Part shown: positions 5,222-58,247 of the stretch, one piece after another
Position numbering within the stretch: position 1 is the first letter of the stretch
Layout: the number at the start of each line of letters is the position of its first letter
Assembly: GCA_026414365.1 (NCBI GenBank)
Contig: JAOAJD010000001.1
Location: forward strand, 231,687 to 295,686
DNA: 64,000 nucleotides
Source of the DNA: Candidatus Iainarchaeum sp.
GTDB taxonomy: Archaea; Iainarchaeota; Iainarchaeia; Iainarchaeales; SKW153
Direction of reading: 5' to 3'
Notes under the pieces: model-generated
Seen by the model: the letters and a program-made list of their open reading frames with translations, nothing else
Databases searched by the model: none
What the model was told of the DNA's origin: nothing
Program-made: the position numbers and the translations under genes

Positions 5222-7003
5222 ATGAAAGAGGATTCAACAAAGCAAAGAGTAGCGGTAATAGAGTATAAGCTATGCCAACCAGAGGCATGTGGCAATTTTT
5301 TGTGCATAAGAGTTTGCCCAGTAAACAAAATGGGAAAAGAGTGTATTAAAAAAAACATTGAAGAAAAACCAGAAATTGATGAAAATCTTTGTACTGGTTG
5401 CGGGATTTGCCAAAAGAAATGTCCTTTTGAAGCAATTCATATAATAAACATATCTACAAAATTAGGTAAGCCAATTCACCAATATGGAAAAAATGCTTTT
5501 AGGTTGTATAGACTTCCGCTACCAAAAGAAGGTTTTGTTGTTGGAATAATAGGTAAAAATGGTGTTGGGAAATCTACTGCCCTAAAGATAATATCAGGTA
5601 TATTAATCCCAAATTTAGGTAATTATGAAGAAAAGGAAAACATAGAAAAAGTTCTGGAATATTACAGAGGTAATGAAATATATAAGCTCTTTGAAAAAAT
5701 AAAAAATAAAGAAATTAAAATATCTTATAAACCACAAAATGTAGAAATAATCCCAAAATACTACAAAGGAAGAGTTATTGATATTTTAGAAAAACATGAT
5801 AGAGAAAAAGTTGATAGGATTATTGAACAATTAAACATAAAAGATTACTTAGATAGACTGTTAGAAAACTTAAGTGGGGGCGAACTACAAAAATTAGCAA
5901 TAGCACTCTGTATTTTAAAGGATGCTGAATTATATGCCTTTGATGAACCATCTTCTTATTTAGACATATACGAAAGAATGAGAATAGCAAAACAGATTAG
6001 AGAACTAGCAGAGAAGGGCAAAAGTGTTATAGTAATAGAACATGACTTAGCTTTATTGGATTATCTTAGCGATTATGTTCACGTTGTGTTTGGAAAACCT
6101 TCTGCATATGGTGTTTTCTCAACAATTAAGAACTCTAAGAATGGGATTAATGAATATTTAGATGGGTTCTTAAAAGATGAAAATCTAAGGTTTAGATCTG
6201 AAGAAATTAAATTCGATGTAGTAGCACCAAATATTGTAGAAAACAGGAAGATATTTACAACATACCCAGAAATGAGAAAAAATTACGAAAATTTTAGATT
6301 AGTTGTAGAAGCTGGTGAAATAAAGAAAGGTGAAGTTTTAGGTATTTTCGGGCCAAATGCAATAGGGAAAACTACTTTCATCAAAATGCTTGCAGGAGTT
6401 GAAAAACCAGATAATGTAAATTTAGAATGGAGATATAAGATTGCATATAAGCCCCAATATCTTACAATAGACGAAAACATCTTAGTTAGAGAATTCTTAG
6501 ATAAATCTAATATTGACAAAGAATTCTTTAACATGTGGTTTGAAAAAAAATTAGATTTGAAAAAATTATTGGATTGCAAACTATCTGAGCTTAGCGGAGG
6601 AGAATTGCAGAAAGTATCGGTAGCTGCGACAATTTGTAAAGACTCAGACATTATTTTATTAGATGAGCCTTCTGCATATGTAGATATAGAAGATAGGTTA
6701 ATAATGGCTGAAGTTATAAGAAAGGCTGCAGAAGTAAAAGAAAAGCCTATAATTGTAGTAGATCACGATATAATTTTTGTAGATTGTGTCAGTGAAAGAA
6801 TAATTGTGTTTGAAGGTAAACCTGCTTTTGAAGGTAGAGCTACAAGAGCTTTAGAAAAAAGAGAAGGTATGAATAAATTTTTAGGTAATATGCAAATAAC
6901 TATGCGCAGAGAAAAGACAACAGGAAGACCAAGGATAAATAAATTGAATTCACAACTTGATCAAGAGCAAAAAAAAGAAGGGAAATATTATTATCTTTAC
7001 TAA
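5222..7003 (+). CDS. abcE1: ABCE1/Rli1 ribosome-recycling ATPase
   Basis: ABCE1 separates ribosomal subunits after termination or rescue. The N-terminal iron-sulfur domain has two cysteine groups: C18, C23, C28, C32 and C57, C60, C63, C67. Two ABC cassettes follow. The first has Walker A GKNGVGKST and signature LSGGELQKLAIA. The second has Walker A GPNAIGKTT and signature LSGGELQKVSVA. The hinge and C-terminal R-rich tail are present, and 593 aa is the normal length. The second Walker A has Ala where Gly is more usual (GPNGIGKT), a mild oddity. It starts as an isolated plus-strand transcript divergent from pelota. Confidence 0.97.
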   Translation: MKEDSTKQRVAVIEYKLCQPEACGNFLCIRVCPVNKMGKECIKKNIEEKPEIDENLCTGCGICQKKCPFEAIHIINISTKLGKPIHQYGKNAFRLYRLPLPKEGFVVGIIGKNGVGKSTALKIISGILIPNLGNYEEKENIEKVLEYYRGNEIYKLFEKIKNKEIKISYKPQNVEIIPKYYKGRVIDILEKHDREKVDRIIEQLNIKDYLDRLLENLSGGELQKLAIALCILKDAELYAFDEPSSYLDIYERMRIAKQIRELAEKGKSVIVIEHDLALLDYLSDYVHVVFGKPSAYGVFSTIKNSKNGINEYLDGFLKDENLRFRSEEIKFDVVAPNIVENRKIFTTYPEMRKNYENFRLVVEAGEIKKGEVLGIFGPNAIGKTTFIKMLAGVEKPDNVNLEWRYKIAYKPQYLTIDENILVREFLDKSNIDKEFFNMWFEKKLDLKKLLDCKLSELSGGELQKVSVAATICKDSDIILLDEPSAYVDIEDRLIMAEVIRKAAEVKEKPIIVVDHDIIFVDCVSERIIVFEGKPAFEGRATRALEKREGMNKFLGNMQITMRREKTTGRPRINKLNSQLDQEQKKEGKYYYLY

Positions 7004-7007
7004 ACAT

Positions 7008-7343
7008 TTATCTTACACAAACTAATTTTATTTCAAAACTTATGGGTGCTTTATTAAACTTACAACTAAAAGTTGTATTTTTTTGAGTGCAATTTAAGTC
7101 ATAAACTTCAAATAACTTATTTAATGAAATATTTGAATTATCAATATTACAACCAGCCTCATTGTATATTATCTGGGCGTTTGTTTGTATTAGCGGTACT
7201 ATTTGTAATTTTTCATAGGCCAAATCATAATTAGCCTCTAATTTAGTGTTATAGTAAGTTGCATAATAATTACTAAAGGATATTATAAGCAAAATAACTG
7301 CCAAAGATACTAAGCCAGCATATGTCGCTTTTTTATTTAACAC
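7008..7343 (-). CDS. Pilin-like membrane protein lacking the acidic residue (minor-pilin module A, gene 4)
   Basis: A 111-aa protein with one N-terminal hydrophobic helix (NKKATYAGLVSLAVILL), followed by a small domain with four cysteines that could form disulfides outside the cell. No known family is recognised. The size and N-terminal helix resemble a type IV pilin, but the Glu or Asp expected about five residues into the helix is absent. I chose the GTG at 7343. A GTGAT ribosome site precedes it by five bases and the upstream gene stops at 7349, whereas the track start overlaps that gene. It is the last gene of a four-gene set (8611-7008) mirrored by a similar set at 36-37.7 kb. Confidence 0.6.
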   Translation of the reverse strand: MLNKKATYAGLVSLAVILLIISFSNYYATYYNTKLEANYDLAYEKLQIVPLIQTNAQIIYNEAGCNIDNSNISLNKLFEVYDLNCTQKNTTFSCKFNKAPISFEIKLVCVR

Positions 7344-7348
7344 AAAAA

Positions 7349-7633
7349 TCACTTTGTGCAATAATTTGCTATTATAGGATTTTTAGCATTATTTTCATTA
7401 TACCTAACTACTACATAACATACAGAATTTCCTGATAAAGAATCTGAAATACCATAACTACTTTTATCTAAATCATTTCCTAAACAAAGATTTGCTATTG
7501 CAAAATCAATACCATAAGAACTATCTTTGAGCTCATAGTAGGGAATAGCAACATCAGAAACAAAAAGATACAAAACAACTAATGCCATGCAAGCTAAGAT
7601 TGCATCTACAGTAAAAATAAATGCCTTTCTCAA
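7349..7633 (-). CDS. Pilin-like protein with Asp5 motif (minor-pilin module A, gene 3)
   Basis: A 94-aa protein whose N-terminus reads RKAFIFTVDAILACM, followed by a hydrophobic helix and a short Cys-containing ectodomain. The F-x-F-x-x-D pattern recurs in two genes of the second module (36387 and 36041). The acidic residue is Asp where the assembly-locus pilins have Glu. I prefer the TTG at 7633 over the GTG at 7642. It follows a GGGTGAT ribosome site by a normal distance and places the basic residues directly before the helix. A role as a minor or tip pilin is inference. Confidence 0.6.
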   Translation of the reverse strand: MRKAFIFTVDAILACMALVVLYLFVSDVAIPYYELKDSSYGIDFAIANLCLGNDLDKSSYGISDSLSGNSVCYVVVRYNENNAKNPIIANYCTK

Positions 7634-7638
7634 AAAAA

Positions 7639-8112
7639 TCACCCTTTATAAACATAGATATATAAAGTCCTAGGTTCTAACATACAACCATCCACATTCT
7701 TCAAACATTTGTTAAAGTCCCCATAACTAATATTTTGTCTATTTTGAGAATAAAGAATAATCCTTTTGGTTATGTAAAAGAAGTTTTTATCATAAGAAGA
7801 TGGGAGAGTATCTAAGTAAATATCGCAACCATAACCACTAGGAGCATTACAATCATTTGGCAATGTAGTTAAGCAATTTGGAATAACAAATTTTAAGTCA
7901 CCATTATTATTAGTAACATAGCAGTGATTAGTATCATAAACCAAATCAGTAGCTGCTATTTCGCTAATTTTTTTTATTTTATAAAGATCAATTTCTTGCA
8001 TAGCATAATAATTAAAAAGCTCAACTATATTTAACAAACTACCAAAAGCAAATATTACAAAAATCAAAGAAAAAAGGAAATCTATTGAAAAGAGTTGAGC
8101 ATCACTATTCAT
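7639..8112 (-). CDS. Pilin-like protein with Asp5 motif (minor-pilin module A, gene 2)
   Basis: A 157-aa protein that starts MNSDAQLFSIDFLFSLIF and continues as a single N-terminal helix. A Cys-rich extracellular region of about 110 residues follows, with six or more cysteines, several in a P-N-C/N-D-C/G-C-D-like stretch. The ATG at 8112 overlaps the stop codon of the preceding gene by 8 bp. The much longer track start (8223) would run deep into that gene. The SIDFLF segment aligns with the class III pilin core S-x-E-x-L-F, but with Asp in place of Glu. Secretion and processing by the prepilin peptidase are likely but not demonstrated. Confidence 0.65.
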   Translation of the reverse strand: MNSDAQLFSIDFLFSLIFVIFAFGSLLNIVELFNYYAMQEIDLYKIKKISEIAATDLVYDTNHCYVTNNNGDLKFVIPNCLTTLPNDCNAPSGYGCDIYLDTLPSSYDKNFFYITKRIILYSQNRQNISYGDFNKCLKNVDGCMLEPRTLYIYVYKG

Positions 8113-8611
8113 AAGGATCACTATAGACCTCATAATAACTATCGCATTCGATGGGTGGATTGTTAATAATGTTTGTAGAAACAATAGTTGGTTTGATGGG
8201 TTTAAAAGAAATAACACTTTCATAATTTGAATCTGTAGCTAAAAAAGAGAAAGGGTACGAAGATATTAATAATTGATTACTAAGAAAATAATAATATTTA
8301 CAATTATTAGTAGAAGGCGAGGTACTATTAATAAATATAGAAGTTTGTGTATTGTAATCTATACTATCCAAAGATTTATCTAAATACACCACACTAAAAA
8401 CTCCATAGTTAGTAATTTCAGATTGAAGGTTCATATTCATTTCATCTTGCGATGATTTTAAATTATATACAAAGGATATAAGGAAACTTAGCATAATAAT
8501 ATAAAACACTAGAGAAAACAATAAATCTAAAGATATTTGCGCCTTGATGTTACTTTTTCTAGTTGTGATATTAGTAGTTGTATGTTCACCCGATATGAAG
8601 ATATAATTCAT
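8105..8611 (-). CDS. Class III pilin-like protein with Asp5 (minor-pilin module A, gene 1)
   Basis: A 168-aa protein whose N-terminus contains KAQISLDLLF, a class III (Q-x-S-x-E) processing site with Asp at position 5 of the mature chain. The hydrophobic helix comes next, then an ectodomain with paired cysteines near the C-terminus. I chose the ATG at 8611 because a TTTTTATATATG box at 8633-8644 sits 25-30 nt upstream, the spacing of a leaderless archaeal promoter. The ORF-track start is a TTG further up inside that promoter. This promoter probably drives all four module A genes, which overlap or nearly touch. Confidence 0.7.
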   Translation of the reverse strand: MNYIFISGEHTTTNITTRKSNIKAQISLDLLFSLVFYIIMLSFLISFVYNLKSSQDEMNMNLQSEITNYGVFSVVYLDKSLDSIDYNTQTSIFINSTSPSTNNCKYYYFLSNQLLISSYPFSFLATDSNYESVISFKPIKPTIVSTNIINNPPIECDSYYEVYSDPYE

Positions 8612-8664: not shown

Positions 8665-10203
8665 CTAAAAAAGAGGTTTACCCTCCATCTCTCTTGGTTT
8701 TTTAATTTTTAATATTTTTAAAATAGTTGGAGCAACATCAATAAGACTCCCCTCTTTGAGCTTTAAATTCTTTAAATTGGGATCCTTCGAGACAATTATA
8801 AAAGGCACTGGATTAGTCGAGTGTGAAGGCTTTGGTTCGCCATTTGGATAAAGTTTATCTTCTGCACTTCCATGATCCGCAGTAATAACACAAATATAAT
8901 CTTTTTCTAAAGCAGCATTAACGATTTTGCCAACACAATCATCAACAGTCTCAACTGCCTTTATCACAGCTGTTAAAACTGCAGAATGCCCTACTAAATC
9001 GCAATTGGCGAAATTTACTAATATGAAATCATACTTCAAAGAATTTATTCTTTTCACTGTTTCTTCAGCAATCTCATAAGCAGACATTTCTGGCTTAACA
9101 TCATAACTTTGTAATTTTAAAGAAGGTATCATCACTCTTTCTTCATTAGGGTAGGGTTCTTCTATCTGTGAATTAAAAAAATATGTCACATGAGCGTATT
9201 TTTCAGTTTCCGCAATTCTGAGTTGTAAATAACCGTTTTTAGACAATAGTTCTCCTAAATTATTTTTAACCTCTGGAATTTCAAAAGCAACTTTGCAGTT
9301 AAGATTCTCTTCGTATTGTGTAAAAGTAACAAAAAATGTTTTCGGCCATATATTTCTTTCAAAATGATTGAATTCATCATCTAAAAAAGCATGACAAAGT
9401 TGTTTTGGTCTATCTGTTCTGAAGTTAAAAAATATTACTGAATCATTGTTTTTTATTGTTGCCAAAGGTTCTCCTTTTTCATTTACTATTACTGTAGGTT
9501 CTATATAATAATCTGTTCTGTCTCCTCTCTCATATGCTTTCTCAATCGCTTCTTTTGCGTTATTGGCTTTATGCCCAACACCTAGAGTTAGTAGTTCGTA
9601 TGCTTGTTTTGTCCTATCCCAATTCTTGTCTCTATCCATTGCATAATATCTCCCTACAACACTAGCTATCTGACCAAAACCAATCTCCTTGAATTTGTCT
9701 TCTATTTGTTTAACATATTTTAATGCAGATCTTTCAGGTACGTCTCTTCCATCTGCAAAAAAGTGCACATAAACATTTTTGAAATCCTCCTTCTTTGCTA
9801 AATCAAGAAGTGCAAGTAAATGATATGTTGTAGCATGAACGCCCTCATCAGAACAAAGACCCATTATATGCAGATTTGATTTATTTTTTTTACAGTTTCT
9901 TATGGCTTCTAATAAAACTTTATTTTTGAAGAAATTGCCAGATCTTATCTCCCTATTGATTAGCTCATATGGTTGCCAAACAACTCTACCAGCACCTATG
10001 TGTAAGTGACCAACTTCAGAATTACCTTGACTTCCTGCTGGCAAACCAACATATTCACCAGAAGCTTCCAACTTAGTAAAAGGAAAATTTGCAATATAAT
10101 AATCGTAATTTGGTTTTTTAGCTAGATGCACACAGTTTCCATTATTTGGTTCTGCAATACCCCAACCATCCATAACAATGAGAATTAATCTTTTTTTGTT
10201 CAT
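8665..10203 (-). CDS. gpmI: 2,3-bisphosphoglycerate-independent phosphoglycerate mutase, bacterial-type iPGM
   Basis: Interconverts 3- and 2-phosphoglycerate in glycolysis/gluconeogenesis. The alkaline-phosphatase-type metal site begins at MDGWG near residue 12. The phosphoserine loop PAGSQGNSEVGH holds the catalytic serine. ADGRDVPERSA, GRYYAMDRD and the final ADHGSAE/GHSAVLTA metal blocks are present. The length of 512 aa and these motifs match the bacterial GpmI form, not the roughly 400-aa archaeal ApgM, which suggests transfer from bacteria at some point. The start overlaps the stop of the JAMM gene (TAATG), so translation is probably coupled. Confidence 0.95.
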   Translation of the reverse strand: MNKKRLILIVMDGWGIAEPNNGNCVHLAKKPNYDYYIANFPFTKLEASGEYVGLPAGSQGNSEVGHLHIGAGRVVWQPYELINREIRSGNFFKNKVLLEAIRNCKKNKSNLHIMGLCSDEGVHATTYHLLALLDLAKKEDFKNVYVHFFADGRDVPERSALKYVKQIEDKFKEIGFGQIASVVGRYYAMDRDKNWDRTKQAYELLTLGVGHKANNAKEAIEKAYERGDRTDYYIEPTVIVNEKGEPLATIKNNDSVIFFNFRTDRPKQLCHAFLDDEFNHFERNIWPKTFFVTFTQYEENLNCKVAFEIPEVKNNLGELLSKNGYLQLRIAETEKYAHVTYFFNSQIEEPYPNEERVMIPSLKLQSYDVKPEMSAYEIAEETVKRINSLKYDFILVNFANCDLVGHSAVLTAVIKAVETVDDCVGKIVNAALEKDYICVITADHGSAEDKLYPNGEPKPSHSTNPVPFIIVSKDPNLKNLKLKEGSLIDVAPTILKILKIKKPREMEGKPLF

Positions 10204-10574
10204 TAATCAATCACCTCAACTGAAACATTTTTTCCATTATTGTCAAAAGCAGCAAAACAATTTATACAAAAAGGTGGAAAAGTTATTAAATGTATTTTGC
10301 CAAACTTTGGGAAATTAGTTAAGTCCACAAAAGATGGGTTGTTACCTAATGGGTGCGAATGCAAACTACCAACAATCTTTTTGTCAAAGGGTATTAACCA
10401 ATGCTTAATAAAAACTGAATTTTTTGAATATTCTGCTGGCACAACTACAAACTCATCAACTATCTCATCTTTATCTTTTGCACTTAACAAACAAAAGAAT
10501 TCATTTGGATAGAGCTTTTTTGAGGCAGCAAGTAAAGATAATAAAATAGATCTTTTTATTTTATATCTTGCCAT
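10203..10574 (-). CDS. JAMM/MPN+ metalloprotease domain protein
   Basis: A compact, single-domain MPN protein of 123 aa. The zinc motif is complete: E25 in the first helix, then H72-x-H74-x6-S81-x2-D84 in SLHSHPLGNNPSFVDL. Such stand-alone archaeal JAMM proteins act as desampylases that cut ubiquitin-like (SAMP/ThiS-like) modifiers from targets, or as related isopeptidases. The substrate here is inference, since no ubiquitin-like or E1 gene is in the window. It lies between the TctA-like gene (40 bp) and iPGM (1-bp overlap) in a minus-strand operon. Confidence 0.85.
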   Translation of the reverse strand: MARYKIKRSILLSLLAASKKLYPNEFFCLLSAKDKDEIVDEFVVVPAEYSKNSVFIKHWLIPFDKKIVGSLHSHPLGNNPSFVDLTNFPKFGKIHLITFPPFCINCFAAFDNNGKNVSVEVID

Positions 10575-10613: not shown

Positions 10614-11792
10614 TTAACCCAGATAATAAAAAATTGTAGGGATTATCAAGAAAGACATTGCATTACTCCTCCTTATGCCAGAAGAGTTTGCAATGAGTCC
10701 TATCGCAGATGAAGTCAAAAAAAGAATTAAACCAATAAAACCTGAAAATACTGTTATAAAAAATATTAAAAATAGAAAGATAGACAAATTCACAAAAAGA
10801 TAGTTTAATGAACTAAAAAGCTTAAAAAACAGAATAGCGAAAAAATCTGCTAAAAAATAAGAAATTGACCCGGCAACAAGACAACAAAATAAAATAAGAA
10901 AAAGCATATTATTATCTAAATAGACCAAATTCTTAATTGCCAAAGCACTCCCTGTTCTTGTTTTTCCTAAAACGAAAAGAACTAGAAATGCAAATACTGT
11001 AGAAGCTGTGTTAATAGCACCACTTATAGTCAAATATGCTTTTTCATCTATTTTACTATAAACCTTTTTTAACAAAAGTAGAGTATTGTTAGGTCCTAAT
11101 GCAGGGAATATTGAGATAAATGCTGAAGCAATTGTCCCAAAAAGAGATTTTACTATATCTTGTTGATTATAACAATAATTACCACAAACTTGTCTTTTTA
11201 TCTCTCTGTTGTTAGTAATAGAGGAATATAGCAAAGAAGCACCTGCAAAAAAACCTGTAGTCAATGGCAATATAGAATTTTGAAAGTTATTTAATGCCAG
11301 TAAACCTAAAAAACCAGATAAAAAAATGACTATGAATGACCAAAAGAGATTTTCTTTTTCAGTAGAAAATAACATAAGAAAAATAGAAATTACTAAAACA
11401 TAAAGGGTTAAACTTTTTAGAATTGAGAAATATCTAGAGATAAAAAATATAAAAAAAGGTGAAACCAATAAACTAAAATACAAACCTAATATAGAACCAA
11501 GTAAAGCCAAACGTAGCGCATAAAATCCTTGACCTCTAAGTAAGAATCTATGAGTTGGCAATGGATTTTCACATTTATCTGATGCGCCTATTAAAATTGA
11601 TGGAATCAAATCAATAAAACAATGAGTAACAGACATTGCAGAAATGACAACAACTAAAAAAACATTATCTAGAAAAGTTAAAATAGAGAAAGAAAAAGCT
11701 ATTGTGTTTATATGAATACCGGGCATTAAACCTGTAAAGCAACCTAAAAGTATACCTAAAGATAGTGCATTAATTATTTCAAAGGCTTCCAA
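10614..11792 (-). CDS. TctA/DUF112-like polytopic membrane transporter (COG1784 type)
   Basis: A membrane protein of 392 aa with about ten transmembrane segments. The signature TGLMPGIHINT occurs near residue 20. A second half-repeat, FPALGPNNTLLLL, is near residue 230. Together these are the duplicated G-x-x-P-G-x-x-x-N/T blocks of the tripartite tricarboxylate transporter large subunit. It belongs to the archaeal branch that works without the usual periplasmic partners; its substrate is unknown. The start is a TTG at 11792 behind a GAGGTTG ribosome-site-like sequence, and it overlaps the OB-fold gene by 14 bp. The two are therefore probably translated as a unit. Confidence 0.75.
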   Translation of the reverse strand: MEAFEIINALSLGILLGCFTGLMPGIHINTIAFSFSILTFLDNVFLVVVISAMSVTHCFIDLIPSILIGASDKCENPLPTHRFLLRGQGFYALRLALLGSILGLYFSLLVSPFFIFFISRYFSILKSLTLYVLVISIFLMLFSTEKENLFWSFIVIFLSGFLGLLALNNFQNSILPLTTGFFAGASLLYSSITNNREIKRQVCGNYCYNQQDIVKSLFGTIASAFISIFPALGPNNTLLLLKKVYSKIDEKAYLTISGAINTASTVFAFLVLFVLGKTRTGSALAIKNLVYLDNNMLFLILFCCLVAGSISYFLADFFAILFFKLFSSLNYLFVNLSIFLFLIFFITVFSGFIGLILFLTSSAIGLIANSSGIRRSNAMSFLIIPTIFYYLG

Positions 11793-12159
11793 TCAAAACA
11801 ACCTCTTCTACTATAATCTCAAGATTTCCTTTGTATTCCTTCACTACTCCTTTTATCTTTAAACTATTGCCCTTTTTAACTAAAGATATTTCATCAACAG
11901 TTGGGTAAAAAATAAGACAATAAATATTCCCTTTATCTTGCAATTCAAAAAACAATATTCCTTTTGAAAGTTTTGCCCAACTGACTATCCCCTTAACCGA
12001 AATCTTCTTATCTATAAAGTTTTTATTTATGTCAGAAATTCTTAATTCAGTAGTTATGTTATTGCCCTCAAAAAAATGAATTAAAAATAAAATACCGAAA
12101 ATTGAAAACAAAAGAGCTATTTTTCTTATTTTATAATCTGAGATATCTTGGGTTAACAT
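11779..12159 (-). CDS. Membrane-anchored OB-fold protein
   Basis: A 126-aa protein with one transmembrane helix (about residues 12-28, KIALLFSIFGILFLIHFF) and then a single OB-fold domain of the tRNA-anti type (ISVKGIVSWAKLSKGILFFELQD ... LKIKGVVKEYKGNLEIIV). It probably binds nucleic acid or another ligand outside or beneath the membrane. No precise role is known. The ATG at 12159 lies about 26 nt downstream of an AAATTAAAAT box, which is itself preceded by an 18-bp palindrome at 12192-12209. It is the first gene of the operon that continues with the TctA-like, JAMM and iPGM genes. Confidence 0.7.
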   Translation of the reverse strand: MLTQDISDYKIRKIALLFSIFGILFLIHFFEGNNITTELRISDINKNFIDKKISVKGIVSWAKLSKGILFFELQDKGNIYCLIFYPTVDEISLVKKGNSLKIKGVVKEYKGNLEIIVEEVVLIGSL

Positions 12160-12782: not shown

Positions 12783-13166
12783 TCAACACTCTATGTTGGT
12801 ATTACACTGTTGGACACTGCCAAAACATACTCTTAACCTTGATGCACCTATCTGCGATTTCAACCCATTACACCAGTTAACATCAAATATCTTAGCTATA
12901 GATCTTATTCTAGAAAAACTAGAAAAATCTACAAAAACATTATAATCCCTGCCACTTATTTGTGTGTTAATATCTTTTAAGTATGTTGGTATATCAAACT
13001 CTGCTTGCTTCTTAATTACTGCCATCTTTGTGAAAAAAACTACTTTTGTCTCATTTAATTGACTGTGATAGTAAGATGCTACAATACCAATTATAAGAAT
13101 AATTGTAGAAATAACAAAAATTAACTCAAAAGATGTTTGAGCCTTATTGTTTAGAACAAACACCAT
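12783..13166 (-). CDS. Class III type IV pilin
   Basis: A 127-aa pilin. The N-terminus NNKAQTSFELIF matches the archaeal class III signal Q-x-S-x-E-x-x-x-L. Cleavage before Gln would leave Glu at mature position 5, ahead of the assembly helix. The ectodomain ends in a Cys cluster. An AGGAGG ribosome site, located inside the end of the preceding pilin gene, sits 8 nt before the ATG at 13166, so the two coding regions overlap by 23 bp. It belongs to the pilus operon with the prepilin peptidase two genes upstream. Confidence 0.85.
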   Translation of the reverse strand: MVFVLNNKAQTSFELIFVISTIILIIGIVASYYHSQLNETKVVFFTKMAVIKKQAEFDIPTYLKDINTQISGRDYNVFVDFSSFSRIRSIAKIFDVNWCNGLKSQIGASRLRVCFGSVQQCNTNIEC

Positions 13167-13572
13167 TTAAATTTCCTCCTGTTTTAGAGAAAGTACAACG
13201 ATATAACCCAGGAGCATTTAAAGTAAAATTAGGACAAGGTATAGGATAATAAGATTTGGACAATTGTGAAGAATTGTTTGATGCTGGCTTATTTAGATAA
13301 ATAATTGTATTTAAACTATTATTCTCACAAGAAATAGCAACTTTGTCAGGGATTAATAAATAGAAAGATAAAGATATGTTCCCAGAATACGAATTGATAT
13401 AAATTAACATTGAAAAAATCTTTCTATAAGCCAAATTTGCTTCAGTTATTGTTTTTATGTCGCTGGAATACCCAAATACATTTTGAGAAAAATCTATGAA
13501 AACATTCAAAATAATTAATGACAAAATTAGAATAAATAAAAATTCGATACTTGTTTGTGCTTTTTTGCTCAT
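13144..13572 (-). CDS. Class III type IV pilin
   Basis: A 142-aa pilin with MSKKAQTSIEFLFIL at the N-terminus, a textbook class III processing site with Glu5. A hydrophobic helix follows, then an ectodomain rich in Ser and Asn with several N-x-S/T sequons that could be glycosylated. I chose the ATG at 13572, which falls just after the stop of the peptidase gene. The track start (13596) would overlap that gene and add residues not seen in the family. Whether it is a major or minor subunit cannot be told. Confidence 0.85.
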   Translation of the reverse strand: MSKKAQTSIEFLFILILSLIILNVFIDFSQNVFGYSSDIKTITEANLAYRKIFSMLIYINSYSGNISLSFYLLIPDKVAISCENNSLNTIIYLNKPASNNSSQLSKSYYPIPCPNFTLNAPGLYRCTFSKTGGNLNGVCSKQ

Positions 13573-13577
13573 AATTT

Positions 13578-14726
13578 TTAAAACAAAAAGTCCCATAAAA
13601 TATCACCTGTAAAATGCAAGCATAAATAACCTAATAATACGGCTGGCACAAAAGGCGCACTTTCAGTAATTGTTATATAATCGATCCCTGAATGTTTAGC
13701 TAGCTCTTTTATTTTTATAACTGCTTCTTTAGTTAATCCTGCCGCACTTTTAGGCGTAGCAATCACCTTACCATATGGACATTCCCCTATACCTAAAAAA
13801 AACAAAACTTCATCTAATTTATTATTTTTTAACTTATTTAAAACACTTGTTGTTGAAGGGAAATCTATCTTTTTTATCACACCATCTTTTTCAACTATTA
13901 AATCGGAAACAATCATACCTTCTTTAATGTCTTTTATCTTAATCTTCTTTCGCATAGCGTTCCTTGAAAGAAAAATCAATTCAAAAAAAACAAAGATTAG
14001 AGATAAGATAATAAAATTAATAAAAAGATCTAGTAATACAGTTTGCTGAAATATAAATGAGAACAAAAAAATAGCAATTGAAATTAAATCAAATGTTTTT
14101 GTTTTTGCTATGTTGGTTAACAACAAAAAAACAAAAACAATTAAGAGAATTATGCTTTTTAAATGGCTAACTCCTAAAAAATTTAAGACAATTGGCAAAG
14201 AAGTATAAAAAATAGAAAAAATAAATACTTTACTAAAATTATTCTTTATACTTAAAAAAAAGAGATTTCTCAACTCGTTGTTTTTATAAAATCTTGAAAG
14301 TGTTATCAAAGCCGCGTAAGGAAACATTGCTAATATACTAAAAAAAAACAAAGATAAAGGAAATATTGGTAAGTTATATCCAAAAGAGAAAGTTTTGGCA
14401 GGGAAAAAGTTTGAAAACATTGAATAATTTATTGGGTTTAAAGATGCTATGGCAGTAAACAACTTTACATCGCCACCTGCCCAAAAACCAAGCTTCCAAA
14501 AGATGAGAGCGATTAAAAATGCTAAGATAGATGCTGCGATAGAAGAAATTAAATAAATAAAATTGTTAAAAAAAAGAGACATAATCAAATGAAGAAACAA
14601 CCCAGCAAATATTAAAAAATAACTGAGATGATCAGGAACTATTCTCTCTTTCAAGTCTGTATAACTTGCGTATACTAATCCAAAAATAGATAAAAGAAAT
14701 AAAAAAAAATAGATCAAAAGATTCAC
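13578..14726 (-). CDS. Archaeal prepilin peptidase (A24, EppA/FlaK-like)
   Basis: An aspartic membrane protease that trims class III or preflagellin-type signals from pilins. The two catalytic aspartates are visible in YTDLKERIVPDHL (near residue 24) and GGDVKLFTA (near residue 88). Seven to nine hydrophobic helices are present. A soluble insertion of about 100 residues (KIKDIKEGMIVSDL and following) comes before the last helix, as in EppA-type peptidases. It is flanked by class III pilins on both sides, which are its obvious substrates. The start is a GTG at 14726. A second, shorter A24 protease is at 58.2 kb. Confidence 0.93.
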   Translation of the reverse strand: MNLLIYFFLFLLSIFGLVYASYTDLKERIVPDHLSYFLIFAGLFLHLIMSLFFNNFIYLISSIAASILAFLIALIFWKLGFWAGGDVKLFTAIASLNPINYSMFSNFFPAKTFSFGYNLPIFPLSLFFFSILAMFPYAALITLSRFYKNNELRNLFFLSIKNNFSKVFIFSIFYTSLPIVLNFLGVSHLKSIILLIVFVFLLLTNIAKTKTFDLISIAIFLFSFIFQQTVLLDLFINFIILSLIFVFFELIFLSRNAMRKKIKIKDIKEGMIVSDLIVEKDGVIKKIDFPSTTSVLNKLKNNKLDEVLFFLGIGECPYGKVIATPKSAAGLTKEAVIKIKELAKHSGIDYITITESAPFVPAVLLGYLCLHFTGDILWDFLF

Positions 14727-14741
14727 TGATTTAAGATGATT

Positions 14742-14921
14742 TTAGAGGTTATTGAAATTAGATATAACTGCTTCCCTTCGCTCATTAATAATGTCATTTA
14801 TTACATTGATCACATCTAAAACTTTCGAAAATATTAAAATTATTACTGCCACTAGCGTCAAAGCTGTAGCTAAAATAAATAAGTATTCTACTGATATCTG
14901 TGCTTTGTCTTGTCTCTCCAT
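14742..14921 (-). CDS. Short class III type IV pilin
   Basis: A 59-aa pilin that consists of little more than the processing site and the helix: MERQDKAQISVEYLFIL followed by about 40 residues ending in charged INERREAV. Glu5 is present. I chose the ATG at 14921; the track TTG start adds three residues and looks unused. It sits between the likely major pilin and the peptidase gene. Such headless pilins are known to form thin archaeal filaments. Its abundance here is not shown. Confidence 0.85.
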   Translation of the reverse strand: MERQDKAQISVEYLFILATALTLVAVIILIFSKVLDVINVINDIINERREAVISNFNNL

Positions 14922-14956
14922 ATGAATCAAAGAACTATAAAATATATATTAATCTC

Positions 14957-15139
14957 TTAAGTATTCGCTAAGTTCCTTAAATGCGTCAATCGACTATTTA
15001 CATCGGTGGTAGCATTATTTACAGTATTCTTACCTAAAGAAAGTGCGTTAGTTACAACTAATATAACAACCGCAGCTACAATCAATGCTGCACCTATAAT
15101 TAGCAGATACTCTAATGCTCCTTGGGCCCTATTATCCAT
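14957..15139 (-). CDS. Probable major class III pilin
   Basis: A 60-aa pilin: MDNRAQGALEYLLIIGAALIV, then a short tail with TVNNATTDVN that offers an N-glycosylation sequon. The processing motif is R-A-Q-G-A-L-E, with Gly and Ala in place of the usual Ser but Glu5 kept. It is the best candidate for the major subunit. It has a strong GGAGGAGT ribosome site at 15145-15152, a symmetrical CTTATATATAAG box near 15202-15213 and a long leader of its own, unlike its neighbours. The peptidase and other pilins lie downstream. Confidence 0.85.
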   Translation of the reverse strand: MDNRAQGALEYLLIIGAALIVAAVVILVVTNALSLGKNTVNNATTDVNSRLTHLRNLANT

Positions 15140-15570
15140 AGTTTACTCCTCCAAATTACTTTTTTATAATAATAAAAACACTTACCTATATATAAAAATT
15201 ACTTATATATAAGACTATTCGTTTTTATTTAAATATAAAGTCATTAAGTAATCTTATTTACAAGATAAAATATATTGGCATTAATCTTAATTTAGTTCCA
15301 ATAAGTTTAGAATACATCCTGATGCACTCCTTTATCTATCAAGAAGTTTAGTTCTTTTATTAATTTTTCCTTAAATAAATCTTACTCTGGATGTTTTCAT
15401 AGAAGTTATTTCAACTATTAGTATATTTTAAAGGCCAAACGTACTCCATTACTTTTTAGGTTAGATTAAAGATAATCAATTAGGTGTTTAGATCTCTTAT
15501 TTAAAATACTAACAAAGCTAACAATTATTTGTACTCATTACAAATATTTAAAGTCCTTAAAAAGCAGTAA
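15140..15570. promoter_or_regulatory. 430-bp gene-free region: promoter and leader of the major pilin
   Basis: No open reading frame of coding quality is seen on either strand. Nearest the pilin it holds a GGAGGAGT ribosome site and a CTTATATATAAG TATA box on the minus strand. Just upstream of that box is ATAAAAACGAAT at 15217-15229, which resembles the right half of the three TTCG...CGAA elements described elsewhere. The remaining 330 bp, 15240-15570, is AT-rich with no clear hairpin or repeat; an untranslated RNA cannot be excluded. Confidence 0.5.
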
Positions 15571-15723
15571 CTAAAACAAACCTAAGACATCATTCAACCA
15601 TTTTATACCTTCATTCATAATTGTTTTTACAATAAGTATTAAAACAGCTACAGCAAAAAGGGCAGAAATAATAAGTAACAAATTTTCGATAGACGCTTGT
15701 GCTCTTTTGTCTTTAAACAACAC
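15571..15723 (-). CDS. 50-residue class III pilin (absent from the ORF track)
   Basis: Read directly from the minus strand: LFKDKRAQASIENLLLIISAL followed by a hydrophobic helix and a tail ending NDVLGLF. RAQASIE is a clear class III processing site with Glu5. The start is a GTG at 15723 or the adjacent TTG at 15720; a stop lies directly upstream in frame. The reading frame overlaps the end of the upstream TadC-like gene by 11 bp, which suggests translational coupling and cotranscription with the assembly genes. It is too short for the 60-aa ORF cutoff. It may be an adaptor or initiating pilin for the machine it is encoded with. Confidence 0.85.
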   Translation of the reverse strand: MLFKDKRAQASIENLLLIISALFAVAVLILIVKTIMNEGIKWLNDVLGLF

Positions 15724-16618
15724 CTATCCCACCTAACAGAGACATTGATACTATTTTTGCTCCTATATAACAAGCAGTAGCTAAAAAACAAAGTATGGGA
15801 AAATATATTAAACTCTTCCTTATGTTTCCATCTCTCATTATTGCTATCATAACTGCTGACATTACTGTCTCAAATATAATATAAAACTCTACACCTAAGA
15901 AAATCGTCTTTAATGTATTAAAAGCTTCTAAAGCTTTTTCTGGAGTTGCTATTATTGTTACAGAATTTATAAGAACTGTAGAAATAGATGTTGCAAAGCC
16001 AAATATTGCAGGAGCAACTATCGAGCCAGCAACAACAATAAATATTGTCTGCAATAGAGTTCTTGATTTTCTTTCCTTAGAAACCCTATGCATGGCTCTC
16101 GCATCTTCTGCTATATCCTCCAACAACTCTGACAAAGCTGCTCCTGCTCGCACAGCATCTATTATTATAGTAATTGTTCTTTTAACTAGTCTAGAATCAA
16201 CATTTTCAGAGATGGATGAAAAGGCTCTATCTAGAGGATCTCCTTCCTCTAATTTTCTTACAACATTGTTTATCTCTTTTTTCATCGGCCCAATATCGTA
16301 AGAAGATATTTCTCTAAGAGCATACTCTATGGTTCCACCTGCTCTCAAAGTATCTGAAATTATTTTTAATACGTCCGGCAATGACTCTTCTATTTCATTA
16401 ATTCTGTTTATCTCCATTAAGTATGGAAAAGATATAAATATATCAAATATTAAAATAAAAAAAGCAAAACTAAGAAGAGGAAAATCTGGCAAAATAACAA
16501 AAGTTAGTAAAGCAACTATAATTGCTAATAAAAATGAAAAGACAAACCAAAGAAGAGGACTTATCTTTAGTCCTATATTTTTTAGATAAATTTCATATTT
16601 TTCTATAAAATTCACCAT
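15713..16618 (-). CDS. Archaeal TadC/FlaJ-like pilus platform protein (second copy)
   Basis: A 301-aa inner-membrane platform protein of the type II secretion F family. Its cytoplasmic segment reads SLPDVLKIISDTLRAGGTIEYALREIS ... DPLDRAFSSI, then RLVKRTITIIIDAVRAGAALSELLEDIAED, the typical duplicated helical pattern. About four to five hydrophobic helices lie on either side. It is smaller than its upstream neighbour and probably pairs with it, as TadB and TadC do in Tad systems. The three-gene assembly core is ATPase, TadC-like, TadC-like, with gaps of 4 bp or less. Confidence 0.88.
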   Translation of the reverse strand: MVNFIEKYEIYLKNIGLKISPLLWFVFSFLLAIIVALLTFVILPDFPLLSFAFFILIFDIFISFPYLMEINRINEIEESLPDVLKIISDTLRAGGTIEYALREISSYDIGPMKKEINNVVRKLEEGDPLDRAFSSISENVDSRLVKRTITIIIDAVRAGAALSELLEDIAEDARAMHRVSKERKSRTLLQTIFIVVAGSIVAPAIFGFATSISTVLINSVTIIATPEKALEAFNTLKTIFLGVEFYIIFETVMSAVMIAIMRDGNIRKSLIYFPILCFLATACYIGAKIVSMSLLGGIGVV

Positions 16619-16622
16619 TCTA

Positions 16623-17834
16623 TCACACCTTTGGCTCTATCATTTTTAGATAGAAAGTCATAATAATTAAAACAACTGGCATAAAAACAAAGTAAAAGAA
16701 TAAAAAAATACTAACAGGCAAAGAAAAAGATAAAAATCCAAAAGGCACAGAAGATATTGCACCTAATAAAGCCACAAAAACAGGGAATACTATTGCCCCT
16801 ACAATAAACAAAACACCGAAGAAATTTAACTTTTCACCGAAATCTCTCACTTTCATCGTTAACTCAAAAGAAACATCTTCTGCAATCTTTGTCATCATAG
16901 TAGAAAGATTACCACCTGTACGCATAGCTCTAAGCATCTGCAAAATTGCTGATTTTAACGCTTTAGAATTTGTTCTTATAGCAAAATGCTCCAGTGCATC
17001 TTTAATGTCAGTTCCCTCTTCAACCTCTCTTATTGTTCTTGCAAATTCTTCTGAAAGTACACCATAATCAGAAGAGGCGATAGTTTGCAAAGTTTTGTAA
17101 AGTCCAACACCTGATTTTACCTGTGTAGCCATATGTCTTAGAGCGAATGGTAATTCAGTGTTTAAATCATCCGCTCTTTTTTTTGCTATACTAGATGGAA
17201 GTAGCAAAGCCACGCAAAAAACAAATATTGAAAAAGCGAATGCAAACAACGCACTTAACAAAAAGTTTGATAGTAATTTTATACCTAATATATCAGTAGA
17301 TATGAATTCTATTTCAAAATAGCTACTTAGGACAGAAATAAAAACAAAAGATAATAGAAGAGATAAAATAAAGGCAATTGCACAAGCAACTAAAGAAATC
17401 GCTAAATATTGATGAACACTCAATCGTATATTTGCACAATATAATTGAAAAGCCAAAGACTTTACAAAAGATAAATTCTTTATTTTATTTAAAAAAAAAT
17501 CAAAAAAATCTTTTAAAGATAGATATATTTTGCCCAATGCTGCTGCTAAAGGGGAGTAATATTCTACCATATCGAAAGATTCATCTTTACTCAATTGAGC
17601 AACTGAACCTTCATAACCTTTGAGTATTTGATCTCCTATAACTTTGCTTCTAATATCACCTATTTTTCCTTCTGCCTCTTCAAGAACAATACCTTCTCGT
17701 TTATATTTTTCTTTTATTTTTCTCACAATTTCATCTACTTTTTCTATATCAATTGGTTGCGAAACGCTCTCCTTTGTTTCTTTTTTTTCTTCTTTAAAGA
17801 ATTCATTTTTTTTATTATCTTTCGAATCCCCCAT
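16623..17834 (-). CDS. Archaeal TadB/FlaJ-like pilus platform protein (first copy)
   Basis: A 403-aa platform protein with a charged, Lys/Glu-rich N-terminal tail of about 90 residues and four or more transmembrane helices. The T2SSF domain shows LPFALRHMATQVKSGVGLYKTLQTIA and LQMLRAMRTGGNLSTMMTKIAEDV. The start lies 1 bp after the ATPase stop codon. In archaeal type IV pili this protein anchors the ATPase and drives subunit extraction from the membrane. The long acidic/basic tail may interact with the similarly charged N-terminus of the ATPase; that is inference. Confidence 0.88.
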   Translation of the reverse strand: MGDSKDNKKNEFFKEEKKETKESVSQPIDIEKVDEIVRKIKEKYKREGIVLEEAEGKIGDIRSKVIGDQILKGYEGSVAQLSKDESFDMVEYYSPLAAALGKIYLSLKDFFDFFLNKIKNLSFVKSLAFQLYCANIRLSVHQYLAISLVACAIAFILSLLLSFVFISVLSSYFEIEFISTDILGIKLLSNFLLSALFAFAFSIFVFCVALLLPSSIAKKRADDLNTELPFALRHMATQVKSGVGLYKTLQTIASSDYGVLSEEFARTIREVEEGTDIKDALEHFAIRTNSKALKSAILQMLRAMRTGGNLSTMMTKIAEDVSFELTMKVRDFGEKLNFFGVLFIVGAIVFPVFVALLGAISSVPFGFLSFSLPVSIFLFFYFVFMPVVLIIMTFYLKMIEPKV

Positions 17835-17835
17835 A

Positions 17836-19494
17836 TCAACCCTTCTTATCTAATAAATATTTTTCACATTCTCTTGAAACTTCTACAACATTTCTTATAC
17901 CTTGTTTTCTAAGATTGTCTAAGAAATTAGCTCTTGAGTATACTTCTGCTTCTATTTGTTTCATTGTTAATCCTGTATATTGTTGTAAATCGTTTAAATA
18001 TTTAACTTTAACGGCCACCTTTTCTATATTATCTTTCACTGGATCCCATATATATATTTGTTGAATTTTTGGTTTTCCTGAAAGCACATCTACAACTTCA
18101 CCTATCTCAACAATTCTTCTTATTGTACCTTTTCTCTTATCATGAATTCTACTTTCTACAATAATTAAATCTAAACCAGACAACATTAAAACAGGAACAT
18201 TCATAGGAGGACTTATTATTCTAACTATTGTTTCGTCTGCAGAGTTTGCGTGTATTGTACCCATACTACCCTGATGACCTGTATTCATAGCAGTAAATAA
18301 AGAAAATGCCTCTGCATGTCTTACCTCCCCAACTATAATCCTATCTGGTCTCATTCTTAGAGCATTTTTAGTTAGTATATCTAAAGATATTTCGCCTGTA
18401 CCCTCAATAGTAGGAGGTCTAGCCTCCATTCTTATCCAATGTTTTAAAGGCAAGTTGAGCTCTGCTGTATCTTCTATAGAAATTATTCTCTCATAACTTG
18501 GAATAAAAGAAGATAAAACATTTAATAGAGTTGTTTTACCTGAGCCTGTACCGCCAGCAATTAGTATGTTTGCAGGTTTAACTTTTAAACCTTCTACACA
18601 TAGCCATAAAAAAGCTGCAAGTTCTGTAGAAAGAGTATTAAAATCTATTAGATCAATCACAGAAAAAGGATCCTCTTTGAATTTTCTTATTGTTAAAGTA
18701 GATGAATCTACAGAAGCTGGTGGTATTGTAGCATTTACTCTGCTTCCATCAGCTAGTCTGGCATCAAGTAACGGCGAGGATAAATCAACTCTCCTACCAA
18801 CAGAAGCTGCAATCCTGTTTATCAAATCTTGTATTTCTTTTTCAGTGAAGAAGACAACATTAGTTAACATCATTTCATACTTCCTATGGAAAACATATAC
18901 TGGTTTTTTTGCCCCTATTACCATTATTTCTTCCAGATTATCATCTCTGACTAAAGGATCTATTAAACCATAACCAACCATCTCTCTAACTACAGCATCT
19001 GCATAAAAGTCCCACTTTGTTGGAGGAACTTTAAGCTCAGTTGATTCTTTTAGTATCTCAATAACTTTTTTATAGTAAGTTGTTCTCCTCTCCCTTTCGT
19101 CTCTTATTCTATATGGTGATATAGTTACTAATCTTGTAACTATTTCTTTAATTGTGTTTATCGTTGCTCTCTCTGCTGCCGATGGTCTGGGTACTGGAAC
19201 GGTGTAAAGAAGAAGAGATTCTCCTTCTAACTTGTATATTTTCGTGTTACCGTAAGAATCTATTAAAACCTTCTTGATTTTTTCTAAATCATTGGTAAAC
19301 TTCTCTTCTTCAGCTCCATAAAAGATAGCTTCTTCTTTTTGTTCATCGCTAAATTTTTTCTCTTCAGCAAAGATATTTTCATCAGCTTTCTCTTTAGAAG
19401 AATCTTCTTCTTTCTTAACTTCTTGACCTTTGGCTATTTCTTGCTCCTTAGTTTCTTTTACTTTTTTCATCAAATCTTTTAAATACTCTGGCAT
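17836..19494 (-). CDS. Type IV pilus assembly ATPase (TadA/VirB11/FlaI family)
   Basis: A 552-aa hexameric secretion ATPase that powers pilin polymerisation. The first 90 residues are highly charged. The N-terminal domain includes ATINTIKEIV and the adapter REMVGYGLIDPLVRDDNLEEIMV. The Walker A motif is IAGGTGSGKTT. Asp-box and Walker B-like features are ISIEDTAEL and RPDRIIVGEVRHAEA, and the His box is GHQGSMGTIHANSA. A TTTATATATAC TATA box lies about 20-30 nt upstream of the ATG at 19494. It heads the run of minus-strand pilus genes. Confidence 0.95.
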   Translation of the reverse strand: MPEYLKDLMKKVKETKEQEIAKGQEVKKEEDSSKEKADENIFAEEKKFSDEQKEEAIFYGAEEEKFTNDLEKIKKVLIDSYGNTKIYKLEGESLLLYTVPVPRPSAAERATINTIKEIVTRLVTISPYRIRDERERRTTYYKKVIEILKESTELKVPPTKWDFYADAVVREMVGYGLIDPLVRDDNLEEIMVIGAKKPVYVFHRKYEMMLTNVVFFTEKEIQDLINRIAASVGRRVDLSSPLLDARLADGSRVNATIPPASVDSSTLTIRKFKEDPFSVIDLIDFNTLSTELAAFLWLCVEGLKVKPANILIAGGTGSGKTTLLNVLSSFIPSYERIISIEDTAELNLPLKHWIRMEARPPTIEGTGEISLDILTKNALRMRPDRIIVGEVRHAEAFSLFTAMNTGHQGSMGTIHANSADETIVRIISPPMNVPVLMLSGLDLIIVESRIHDKRKGTIRRIVEIGEVVDVLSGKPKIQQIYIWDPVKDNIEKVAVKVKYLNDLQQYTGLTMKQIEAEVYSRANFLDNLRKQGIRNVVEVSRECEKYLLDKKG

Positions 19495-35626: not shown

Positions 35627-36073
35627 ATGACCAAAAAAAATATTTTTGTAAAAACAAACGCACAAATAAGTATAGAGTATCTCATCTTAATTGCAGTATC
35701 TCTAGGATCTATTTTAATATTGACCCAAGCGATGGATAAAATTAATGAAGTATTTATTTTTCTAATAGAATTGAAAGAAGCAGAAAGAATAATGAACAGT
35801 ATAGAAAGTAGGATTAACCTCTTGAACGAACTTGCAGATAATAGTTGTATGTGTGAAGATTTATATTTTGGTAATGCGCATAAAGAACTAAAAAAAGATT
35901 ATGATAAAATTACTTTAACAATTAGATACAAAACTAGAGAAAAAGATATTTCTAGAGATGTTAAACTTAGAAATGTTGTTATAAAAAATCAAATCGTAGA
36001 AAAACTAAAAAAAATTTGCATAACAAAAAAAGATAATTTTCTAATAATAGATAACAAATGTCAACCTTTCTAA
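35627..36073 (+). CDS. Class III type IV pilin with ectodomain
   Basis: A 148-aa pilin starting MTKKNIFVKTNAQISIEYLILIA. The motif N-A-Q-I-S-I-E carries Glu5. The ectodomain is about 100 residues, with CMC and two further cysteines. The ATG at 35627 is 4 nt after the stop of the first pilin; the track start at 35588 lies well inside it and is not credible. Its 3' end overlaps the convergent module B gene by 33 bp, an unusually long antisense overlap. Confidence 0.82.
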   Translation: MTKKNIFVKTNAQISIEYLILIAVSLGSILILTQAMDKINEVFIFLIELKEAERIMNSIESRINLLNELADNSCMCEDLYFGNAHKELKKDYDKITLTIRYKTREKDISRDVKLRNVVIKNQIVEKLKKICITKKDNFLIIDNKCQPF

Positions 36074-36394
36074 ATGCAGATTGTCTATATAGTAAATATC
36101 TACCGCATTGCTTTCTGTAGTTGAAATAGAATTACAATCTACAAAGAACTTATCTTTATCTGAGTAAAAATATGCTTTTTTTCCATAAAAAAAGAAACAA
36201 AAATCTTTAGTAAGTAAATCTTTATCAAAAGAATTTTCTATCAACCAAATTCTAGCTAAGTCATATTGTTTTTGGATTATTATAAAATCTTCCAAATCTT
36301 GATTCAAGTTTACTGAATGAAAACTTAAAAATAACAGACAAAAACAAAACAAAAAAAATATACTATCATAACTAAAAACAAATCCTCTAATCAT
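36041..36394 (-). CDS. Pilin-like protein with Asp5 motif (minor-pilin module B, gene 4)
   Basis: A 117-aa protein: MIRGFVFSYDSIFFLF, a hydrophobic helix, then a short ectodomain with two cysteines. The F-V-F-S-x-D-S pattern is shared with the gene just upstream and with F-I-F-T-V-D in module A. The ATG at 36394 overlaps the upstream stop codon by 8 bp, so translation is probably coupled. No database family is recognised. It is likely exported and helix-anchored; a tip or minor pilin role is inference. Confidence 0.6.
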   Translation of the reverse strand: MIRGFVFSYDSIFFLFCFCLLFLSFHSVNLNQDLEDFIIIQKQYDLARIWLIENSFDKDLLTKDFCFFFYGKKAYFYSDKDKFFVDCNSISTTESNAVDIYYIDNLHLERLTFVIYY

Positions 36395-36851
36395 AACAAA
36401 ACCTTGCAATAAGCTTTGCTTTATATCTTTTATCTTTCATAACAACAACAAATCTTTCCATAGAAAAGCAGTTTTCTTCTTCGTCTAAACTACAAAAAAC
36501 TTCGCTTTTATTATCTTCATATTTTAAAAACAAACATTGTAGATAAATTTTGCTATTCAACAAATAGAAGGGCAGCTCCATCTTCTTCAATAAATTATAA
36601 TCTATTGTGTTCTCAATTATTCTTTTTTTATCTGTATCGTAATATGCACTACCAAGTAAAGGAAAATTTTCATTTCGATCTCTGATAAAAATATTTAGAA
36701 AAGAGCTAGTTTTTCTAAAGTCAGAAAATTGTTTAAGCTGTTGGCTATAGAATAAAGTATTTTGAAAAACAAAAAACATGAAAAAAGAAGCTGAAACAAA
36801 TATTAAGAATAAACCTAAAGAGCTATCTGAAGAAAAAACAAATCCTTTCAA
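36387..36851 (-). CDS. Pilin-like protein with Asp5 motif (minor-pilin module B, gene 3)
   Basis: A 154-aa protein beginning (M)KGFVFSSDSSLGLFLIF, one hydrophobic helix and a Cys-containing ectodomain (five cysteines). I chose the TTG at 36851 because GGTGAT precedes it by six bases. The same GGTGATTTTTTTG start arrangement is seen for module A gene 3 at 7633. Asp replaces the pilin Glu5. Its order and start signal parallel the module A gene, which suggests common descent despite little other similarity. Confidence 0.6.
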   Translation of the reverse strand: MKGFVFSSDSSLGLFLIFVSASFFMFFVFQNTLFYSQQLKQFSDFRKTSSFLNIFIRDRNENFPLLGSAYYDTDKKRIIENTIDYNLLKKMELPFYLLNSKIYLQCLFLKYEDNKSEVFCSLDEEENCFSMERFVVVMKDKRYKAKLIARFCYD

Positions 36852-36866
36852 AAAAATCACCAAAAA

Positions 36867-37205
36867 TTACTCATAGTATTTCCTTGGTTCTATCTTAAAG
36901 CTTATATTGCTATCTGAAGAAGGAATTATTCTAGAAAAAACTCTTGCAAAAACATAATTGTGCTTTGGATGAGATATGTAGTTATCTTTAAAGTATCTGC
37001 AATGAAACCACTTACTAAAAGACCATCTTACAAAATAAACTCTAGAGTTATCGATCAAAAAAGCACATGTCTCTAGATCTGCTAAATTATTTAGATTAAT
37101 AAACTTATTTTCTAACATTTCTATTGATCTGATAAAAAAAAGAGACAATAAGATAACAACAAAAATATAAGCAAGAGTAGAAAATATAAAATCTAAACTA
37201 ATCAT
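36867..37205 (-). CDS. Pilin-like protein with Asp5 motif (minor-pilin module B, gene 2)
   Basis: A 112-aa protein that starts directly with MISLDFIFSTLAYIF: almost no leader, Asp at the fifth residue, then the helix. The ectodomain has two cysteines and is rich in Arg and aromatic residues. I-S-L-D-F-I-F corresponds to I-S-L-D-L-L-F of module A gene 1 and to S-I-D-F-L-F of gene 2. Its ATG overlaps the upstream stop (ATGA). With no basic leader, processing by a prepilin peptidase may not be needed. Confidence 0.6.
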   Translation of the reverse strand: MISLDFIFSTLAYIFVVILLSLFFIRSIEMLENKFINLNNLADLETCAFLIDNSRVYFVRWSFSKWFHCRYFKDNYISHPKHNYVFARVFSRIIPSSDSNISFKIEPRKYYE

Positions 37206-37702: not shown

Positions 37703-37731
37703 AAAATAAGTATACAACAAAAGTAATAAAA

Positions 37732-37749
37732 ATTCGTCTATCGACGAAT
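37732..37749 (-). promoter_or_regulatory. TTCGTC-N4-GACGAA palindrome upstream of module B promoter
   Basis: ATTCGTCTATCGACGAAT on the plus strand is a perfect 7-bp inverted repeat with a 4-nt spacer. It spans the stop codon of the membrane HTH gene and lies immediately upstream of the TTTTTATTAC box for gene 37202. It could be an operator, possibly for the HTH protein itself. Because it can also fold in RNA and is followed by a T-run, it could alternatively end the HTH transcript. Two related copies elsewhere favour the operator view. Confidence 0.6.
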
Positions 37750-58235: not shown

Positions 58236-58247
58236 TTGGGGTTTAAA

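Follow-up and report, generated by a model that had tools for sequence, protein, structure and literature searches.

The window analyzed here, a 64,000-nucleotide stretch of a Candidatus Iainarchaeum genome, contains four overlapping minor pilin genes, A1 to A4, whose products probably initiate and cap filaments of the main Tad/Epd-like type IV pilus in the Diapherotrites. The set is most likely a tip/initiation complex, with a tip position that we infer. Domains grafted onto its subunits and a cap subunit without Glu5 are hallmarks of bacterial tip complexes.

Four overlapping pilin genes conserved across a phylum

The four minus-strand ORFs lie exactly at 7008-8611, where a sequence-only reading of the window had placed a four-gene pilin set (Table 1). 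The overlaps are 8 bp between A1 and A2, 4 bp between A2 and A3, and 13 bp between A3 and A4. In all four families, a short, positively charged leader ends in Gly or Ala and is followed by a long hydrophobic helix. The window proteins contain two (A1), six (A2), four (A3), and four (A4) cysteines. In the orthologue alignments, two cysteines of A3 (n = 31) and one of A4 were invariant, and further cysteines were near-invariant. A scan for consensus promoters and terminators gave counts close to the shuffled expectation.

Table 1. Features of the window discussed in the text (^, presumed processing site; positions are those of the window)
Feature	Position	Strand	Description	Basis
ABCE1	5222-7003	plus	convergent with A1-A4
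A4	7008-7361	minus	acid-less pilin, NKKATYAGLVSL (NKKA^TYAGLVSL), 117 aa, candidate tip cap	ORF call, alignment
A3	7349-7642	minus	minor pilin, RKAFIFTVDAIL (RKA^FIFTVDAIL), 97 aa, GTG start	ORF call, alignment
A2	7639-8112	minus	minor pilin, SDA^QLFSIDFLF, 157 aa	ORF call, alignment, AlphaFold
A1	8105-8611	minus	class III minor pilin, ...IKA^QISLDLLF, 168 aa	ORF call, family alignment
iPGM	8665-10203	minus	constant upstream neighbor and synteny marker, probably outside the pilus	locus comparison
JAB/MPN	10203-10574
TctA-like permease	10614-11792
OB-fold	11779-12159
Two class III pilins	12783-13596	minus	QTSxE, 127 and 150 aa, same conserved locus
Prepilin peptidase	13578-14726	minus	Peptidase_A24 + Arc_PepC, presumed processing enzyme	family search
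Three small Flp-like class III pilins	14742-15723	minus	QISVE, QGALE, QASIE; candidate major pilins
TadC2	15713-16618	minus	assembly platform	family knowledge
TadC1	16623-17834	minus	assembly platform	family knowledge
TadA	17836-19494	minus	secretion ATPase	family knowledge
Module B	36041-37720	minus	second four-pilin set
HTH regulator	37738-38337
Second A24-type prepilin peptidase	58236-59078	plus		named by eye

The assembly of the host genome measures 579 kb and is 68.5% complete, and its order includes archaeon GW2011_AR10 (AR10) and other records named Candidatus Diapherotrites. Profile searches were performed on 87 genomes of the host phylum (Diapherotrites/Iainarchaeota). The A2 profile matched 79 of them, including all 25 genomes that are at least 90% complete, and the A4 profile matched 72; weak hits to paralogues are included in both numbers. 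The gene order iPGM-A1-A2-A3-A4-ABCE1 was kept across families of the host order and was also found in a genome from another order of the class (L192). The gene after A4 was usually ABCE1 or that of a secreted DUF4139 protein. Syntenic four-gene sets, which the sequence-only reading had suggested looking for in related archaea, were thus found in the same order across the phylum. A frameshift or ORF artefact as the source of A1-A4 was ruled out by the synteny kept in many genomes.

Two side observations were made in these loci. The DUF4139 protein repeatedly found downstream of A4 is membrane-anchored and about 500 aa long (L063:8777-10291, L062:5487-7028, and L071:6906-8393). Records titled 'Thaumarchaeota archaeon' (L066) and 'Chloroflexi bacterium' (L067) carry the Diapherotrites module and its neighbors, and their titles are probably wrong.

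A search of the host genome with PF04021 (Class_IIIsignal, QxSxE) returned exactly the seven Glu pilins described below, and A1-A4 gave no match to this profile at E ≤ 1. Pfam, NCBIfam, and PDB sequence searches with A1-A4 returned no relative, including no homology to GspH/I/J/K or PilH/I/J/K. The AlphaFold model of window A2 (pLDDT 90.2) shows a helix at residues 8-60 followed by a beta ectodomain. That of an A4 orthologue (L068; pLDDT 84.9) shows a helix at 4-71, a second helix at 76-97, and five strands. Folds unrelated to pilins had been named as one outcome that would speak against the proposal; both models have the pilin layout of a long N-terminal helix and a C-terminal beta ectodomain. 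Foldseek searches of the two models against the PDB gave no match at E ≤ 0.001, and a match to a solved pilin is supportive rather than strictly defining, as archaeal pilin ectodomains vary.

Identity and position of the N-terminal acid

The seven class III pilins of the window (coordinates from 12783, 13144, 14742, 14957, 15574, 35410, and 35588) all carry Glu, as the sequence-only reading had listed, and their presence in the same window rules out genome-wide drift as the source of Asp. The acids of A1-A4 were counted over 69 orthologous loci. A1 carried Asp in 53 of 64 orthologues and Glu in the other 11, always at +5 from the conserved Gly/Ala (64/64). In A2, Asp was found in all 68 orthologues, at +6 wherever spacing was scored (66/66). 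A3 carried Asp in 50, Glu in 10, and no acid in 5 of 65 orthologues, with the acid at +6 in 60/60. The spacing from Gly/Ala to the acid showed no variation within the A1, A2, or A3 family. A4 was without an acid in 60 of 60 orthologues. A2 was the best conserved of the four, and its Asp was the sole invariant column in an alignment of 32 orthologues with a mean column identity of 27%.

Three subunits with an acid and one without were found in nearly all loci. This pattern is not absolute, because A3 is also acid-less in one family (f4) and the A3 gene is absent from one genome (G011). The +6 spacing of A2 and A3 means either that the peptidase cuts one residue later or that the acid truly lies at +6, and the +6 Asp may not be equivalent to Glu5.

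The sequence-only reading had described Asp5 in three pilins as a consistent Glu-to-Asp change. Asp is present in all three window proteins, but it lies at +5 from the conserved Gly/Ala in A1 alone. In the form given, a consistent change at position 5 finds no support, given the +6 acid of A2 and A3, the Glu of some A1 and A3 orthologues, the acid-less A3 of f4, and the Asp(+6) common to other minor-pilin modules. The conservation it had asked about was complete for the Asp of A2 and partial for A1 and A3. Random residues at this place in homologues were clearly not what was found, and its acid-less fourth pilin held in every orthologue.

A census was compiled from all pilin-like ORFs of the loci examined. 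Among Q-type pilins whose acid lies at +6, 67 carried Asp and 2 Glu, and +5 class III pilins with no A2-type pilin directly after them carried Glu in 72 and Asp in 6, counts that are not phylogenetically independent. Among +5 pilins directly before an A2-type pilin, Asp and Glu numbered 50 and 13, versus 6 and 72 in the other +5 class III pilins (Fisher p ~5e-19, descriptive only given the phylogenetic non-independence).

Asp might merely be tolerated in place of Glu, with any carboxylate under selection, which we consider possible but doubtful; such tolerance would be compatible with a tip complex, except for A2. The Glu found in A1 (11/64) and A3 (10/65) agrees with tolerance, and in TcpB, an initiating pilin of bacteria, E5D is nearly neutral, pilus assembly being kept with slightly lower function (PMC5207764). 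However, the unbroken Asp of A2 (68/68), together with the census contrast between +6 Q-type pilins and +5 class III pilins, argues that Asp is required in the +6 geometry.

Pilus locus, paralogous modules, and grafted domains

The full locus in AR10 and G006 comprises, in order, ThrRS, TadA, TadC1, TadC2, small QGALE/QxSxE pilins, the A24 peptidase, two QxSxE pilins, the OB-fold protein, the TctA-like permease, iPGM, and A1-A4; AR10 also has DUF2101, and G006 also has JAB. The window agrees with this locus from 21334 down to 7008, and A1-A4 lie at its distal end. The genes at 15713-19494 we take to encode TadA, TadC1, and TadC2, as named from the window sequences by established family knowledge. 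The three proteins were found in the same order in G006, AR10 (G012), G011, and G018. In G011 and G016, the motor genes lie elsewhere, and the quartet is still with TctA/JAB/iPGM. Because A1-A4 are placed in this locus and are kept by TctA/JAB/iPGM when it is split, the pilus that the quartet serves is most likely the main Tad/Epd-like one.

The OB-fold, TctA-like permease, and JAB/MPN genes are held in the pilus locus across the phylum for no obvious reason. The second A24-type prepilin peptidase of the window, together with that of the pilus locus, makes two in one small genome, a pair that recalls the FlaK/EppA division of labour.

Module B is a second four-pilin set, in which an acid-less pilin comes first and is followed by pilins with ISLD, FSSD, and FSYD. 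It gave no match in Pfam and NCBIfam. Its apparent orthologues (L182, L184, L185, and L187, the last from AR10) have an M50-like membrane protease nearby, and some also have an HTH regulator, as in the window. Module B and several paralogous sets share a similar series of Glu(+5) pilins, then an Asp(+6) pilin, then one with either Asp or Glu at +6, and a pilin without the acid. In the longer sets, this acid-less pilin has a length of about 290-713 aa. These paralogues rule out Asp as unique to the quartet, here module A. Asp in the A2/A3-type pilins of other modules is therefore a general mark of minor-pilin sets in the phylum. The one distinctive trait of module A is the Asp(+5) of A1.

An extra adhesive or enzymatic domain was found on A4 in two lineages. 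The A4 orthologue of L069 (1471-4764; 1098 aa) combines a pilin with PKD repeats and a GH10 glycosidase (E = 5e-63); it comes from a small-genome archaeon and shares its contig with L137. That of L136 (1533-5099; 1189 aa) combines a pilin with four Laminin_G_3 domains (E = 4e-68). In both, the reading frame of the A4 pilin part runs on into the graft, and A1-A3 are found upstream. Grafts of this size (about 900-1000 aa) occur in 2 of 60 A4 orthologues, each on one contig; most A4 orthologues are 96-222 aa long with no catalytic domain, and the window's own A4 has no graft. Furthermore, VWA domains were found on A3-type pilins (770-1270 aa) of paralogous modules (L176:2992-6807, L179:2482-4788, and L191:4504-8145). 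The adjoining acid-less pilins of these three loci are 331-713 aa long, and that of L191 carries DUF2341, a domain linked to archaeal PilY-like tip proteins (PMC4858521).

The huge C-terminal grafts on the acid-less A4 fit a tip position. They also bear on an unlikely alternative, in which A1-A4 are accessory minor pilins on the shaft or at the base, with no part in initiation or capping and with the missing acid of A4 incidental. Makarova et al., drawing an analogy with minor archaellins, put the minor pilins of archaea near the base (PMC4858521), and several minor pilins of Methanococcus maripaludis are dispensable for piliation (PMC3875500), both in line with such a role. However, an acid-less subunit cannot neutralise the N-terminus of the pilin above it (argument in PMC9934059), and A4 is acid-less in every orthologue; the A4 grafts would be hard to accommodate in a shaft, and the strict four-gene order is unlike that of scattered decorative pilins.

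A short type II secretion-like pseudopilus, or a surface-anchored, non-polymerised array as proposed for the Sulfolobus bindosome, with the grafted forms acting as surface enzymes or binding proteins, is quite improbable: the GH10, LamG, PKD, and VWA grafts, the class III signal peptides also used by Sulfolobus sugar-binding surface proteins (work cited in PMC3875500), and the secreted DUF4139 protein often encoded downstream point that way, but several pilins of the locus are small and Flp-like, as is typical of a true pilus, and the usual A4 is short and non-catalytic.

Proposed tip complex and comparison with known systems

In the tip/initiation model, the A24 peptidase would trim the four prepilins, and their hydrophobic N-terminal helices would associate in the membrane. 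The Asp of A1, A2, and A3, at +5 or +6, would be available to pair with the N-terminal amine of the next subunit up, and A4 could be the top subunit only, because it has no acid. A tip complex capped by a subunit without Glu5 follows a rule described previously (PMC10191384). The TadA ATPase and the TadC platform would add small QGALE-type major pilins underneath, so that the quartet would remain at the tip, where its disulfide-bonded ectodomains would touch the target. In some species, the lectin, VWA, or glycosidase grafts would also contact the target.

The proposal of a dedicated tip or initiation complex made in the sequence-only reading is upheld as to the dedicated four-pilin unit, now with phylum-wide synteny, an acid-less subunit, and A4 grafts, but not as to a consistent Glu-to-Asp change at position 5. 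Its view that the set is not a described archaeal system agrees with the literature searched, in which no archaeal tip complex of this sort was found.

We give about even weight to the possibility that A1-A4 are the first set in archaea to be recognised as equivalent to the four-pilin initiation/tip complex of bacteria. The quartet would use Asp, its acid-less cap would also hold interchangeable tools (lectin, glycosidase), each genome would have several paralogous versions, and Diapherotrites would use them for cell or surface contact. If this is true, the one-residue shift of A2 and A3 and their Glu-to-Asp change would solve the same problem of N-terminal docking in another way. The starting factor and the tip occupant of archaeal type IV pili are poorly known. 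A1-A4 provide four alignable families kept across a DPANN phylum, absent from Pfam and NCBIfam and missed by PF04021. With them, the 'acid-less cap' rule can be put to the test in another domain of life, and the lectin, VWA, and glycosidase grafts hint at what these archaea touch or digest.

The minor pilins of M. maripaludis Epd pili (EpdA/B/C and MMP1283) likewise belong to the archaeal class III pilins and have a peptidase of their own, and some are essential for piliation (PMC3875500). Unlike A1-A4, the six pilins of that study have Gln at +1 and Glu at +5, their genes are mostly scattered, and no acid-less cap is described for them.

Among bacterial systems, TadEFG and Myxococcus KilLMN resemble the present case in the Tad-type motor, the small Flp-like major pilins, and the several paralogous sets of tip genes in each genome, whose C-terminal domains vary (PMC12075869). 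They differ in having three subunits, with no acid-pattern rule in PMC12075869 and no sequence relation found to A1-A4. Streptococcus sanguinis PilABC also has one subunit without Glu5, and its tip pilins PilB and PilC carry a VWA domain and a ConA-like lectin, respectively (PMC9934059), comparable to the VWA and LamG grafts here. However, PilABC comprises three proteins, and its acid-less subunit, PilA, is small and has no graft, whereas in module A the grafts are on the acid-less A4.

PilHIJK and GspHIJK, of bacterial type IVa pili and type II secretion, are needed for initiation and share with A1-A4 four co-encoded minor pilins, one of them without the docking acid, and the layout of a helix and a beta ectodomain (PMC10191384, PMC9934059). 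Four such genes were found together in the A1-A4 loci, with A3 missing in G011. A1-A4 differ in showing no detectable sequence or fold-search similarity to them, in Asp for Glu, in two subunits with the acid at +6, in an archaeal Tad-like motor, and in a tip location that we infer. Homology does not place A1-A4 in any of these families; in the tip model, they most likely work like HIJK, PilABC, and KilLMN.
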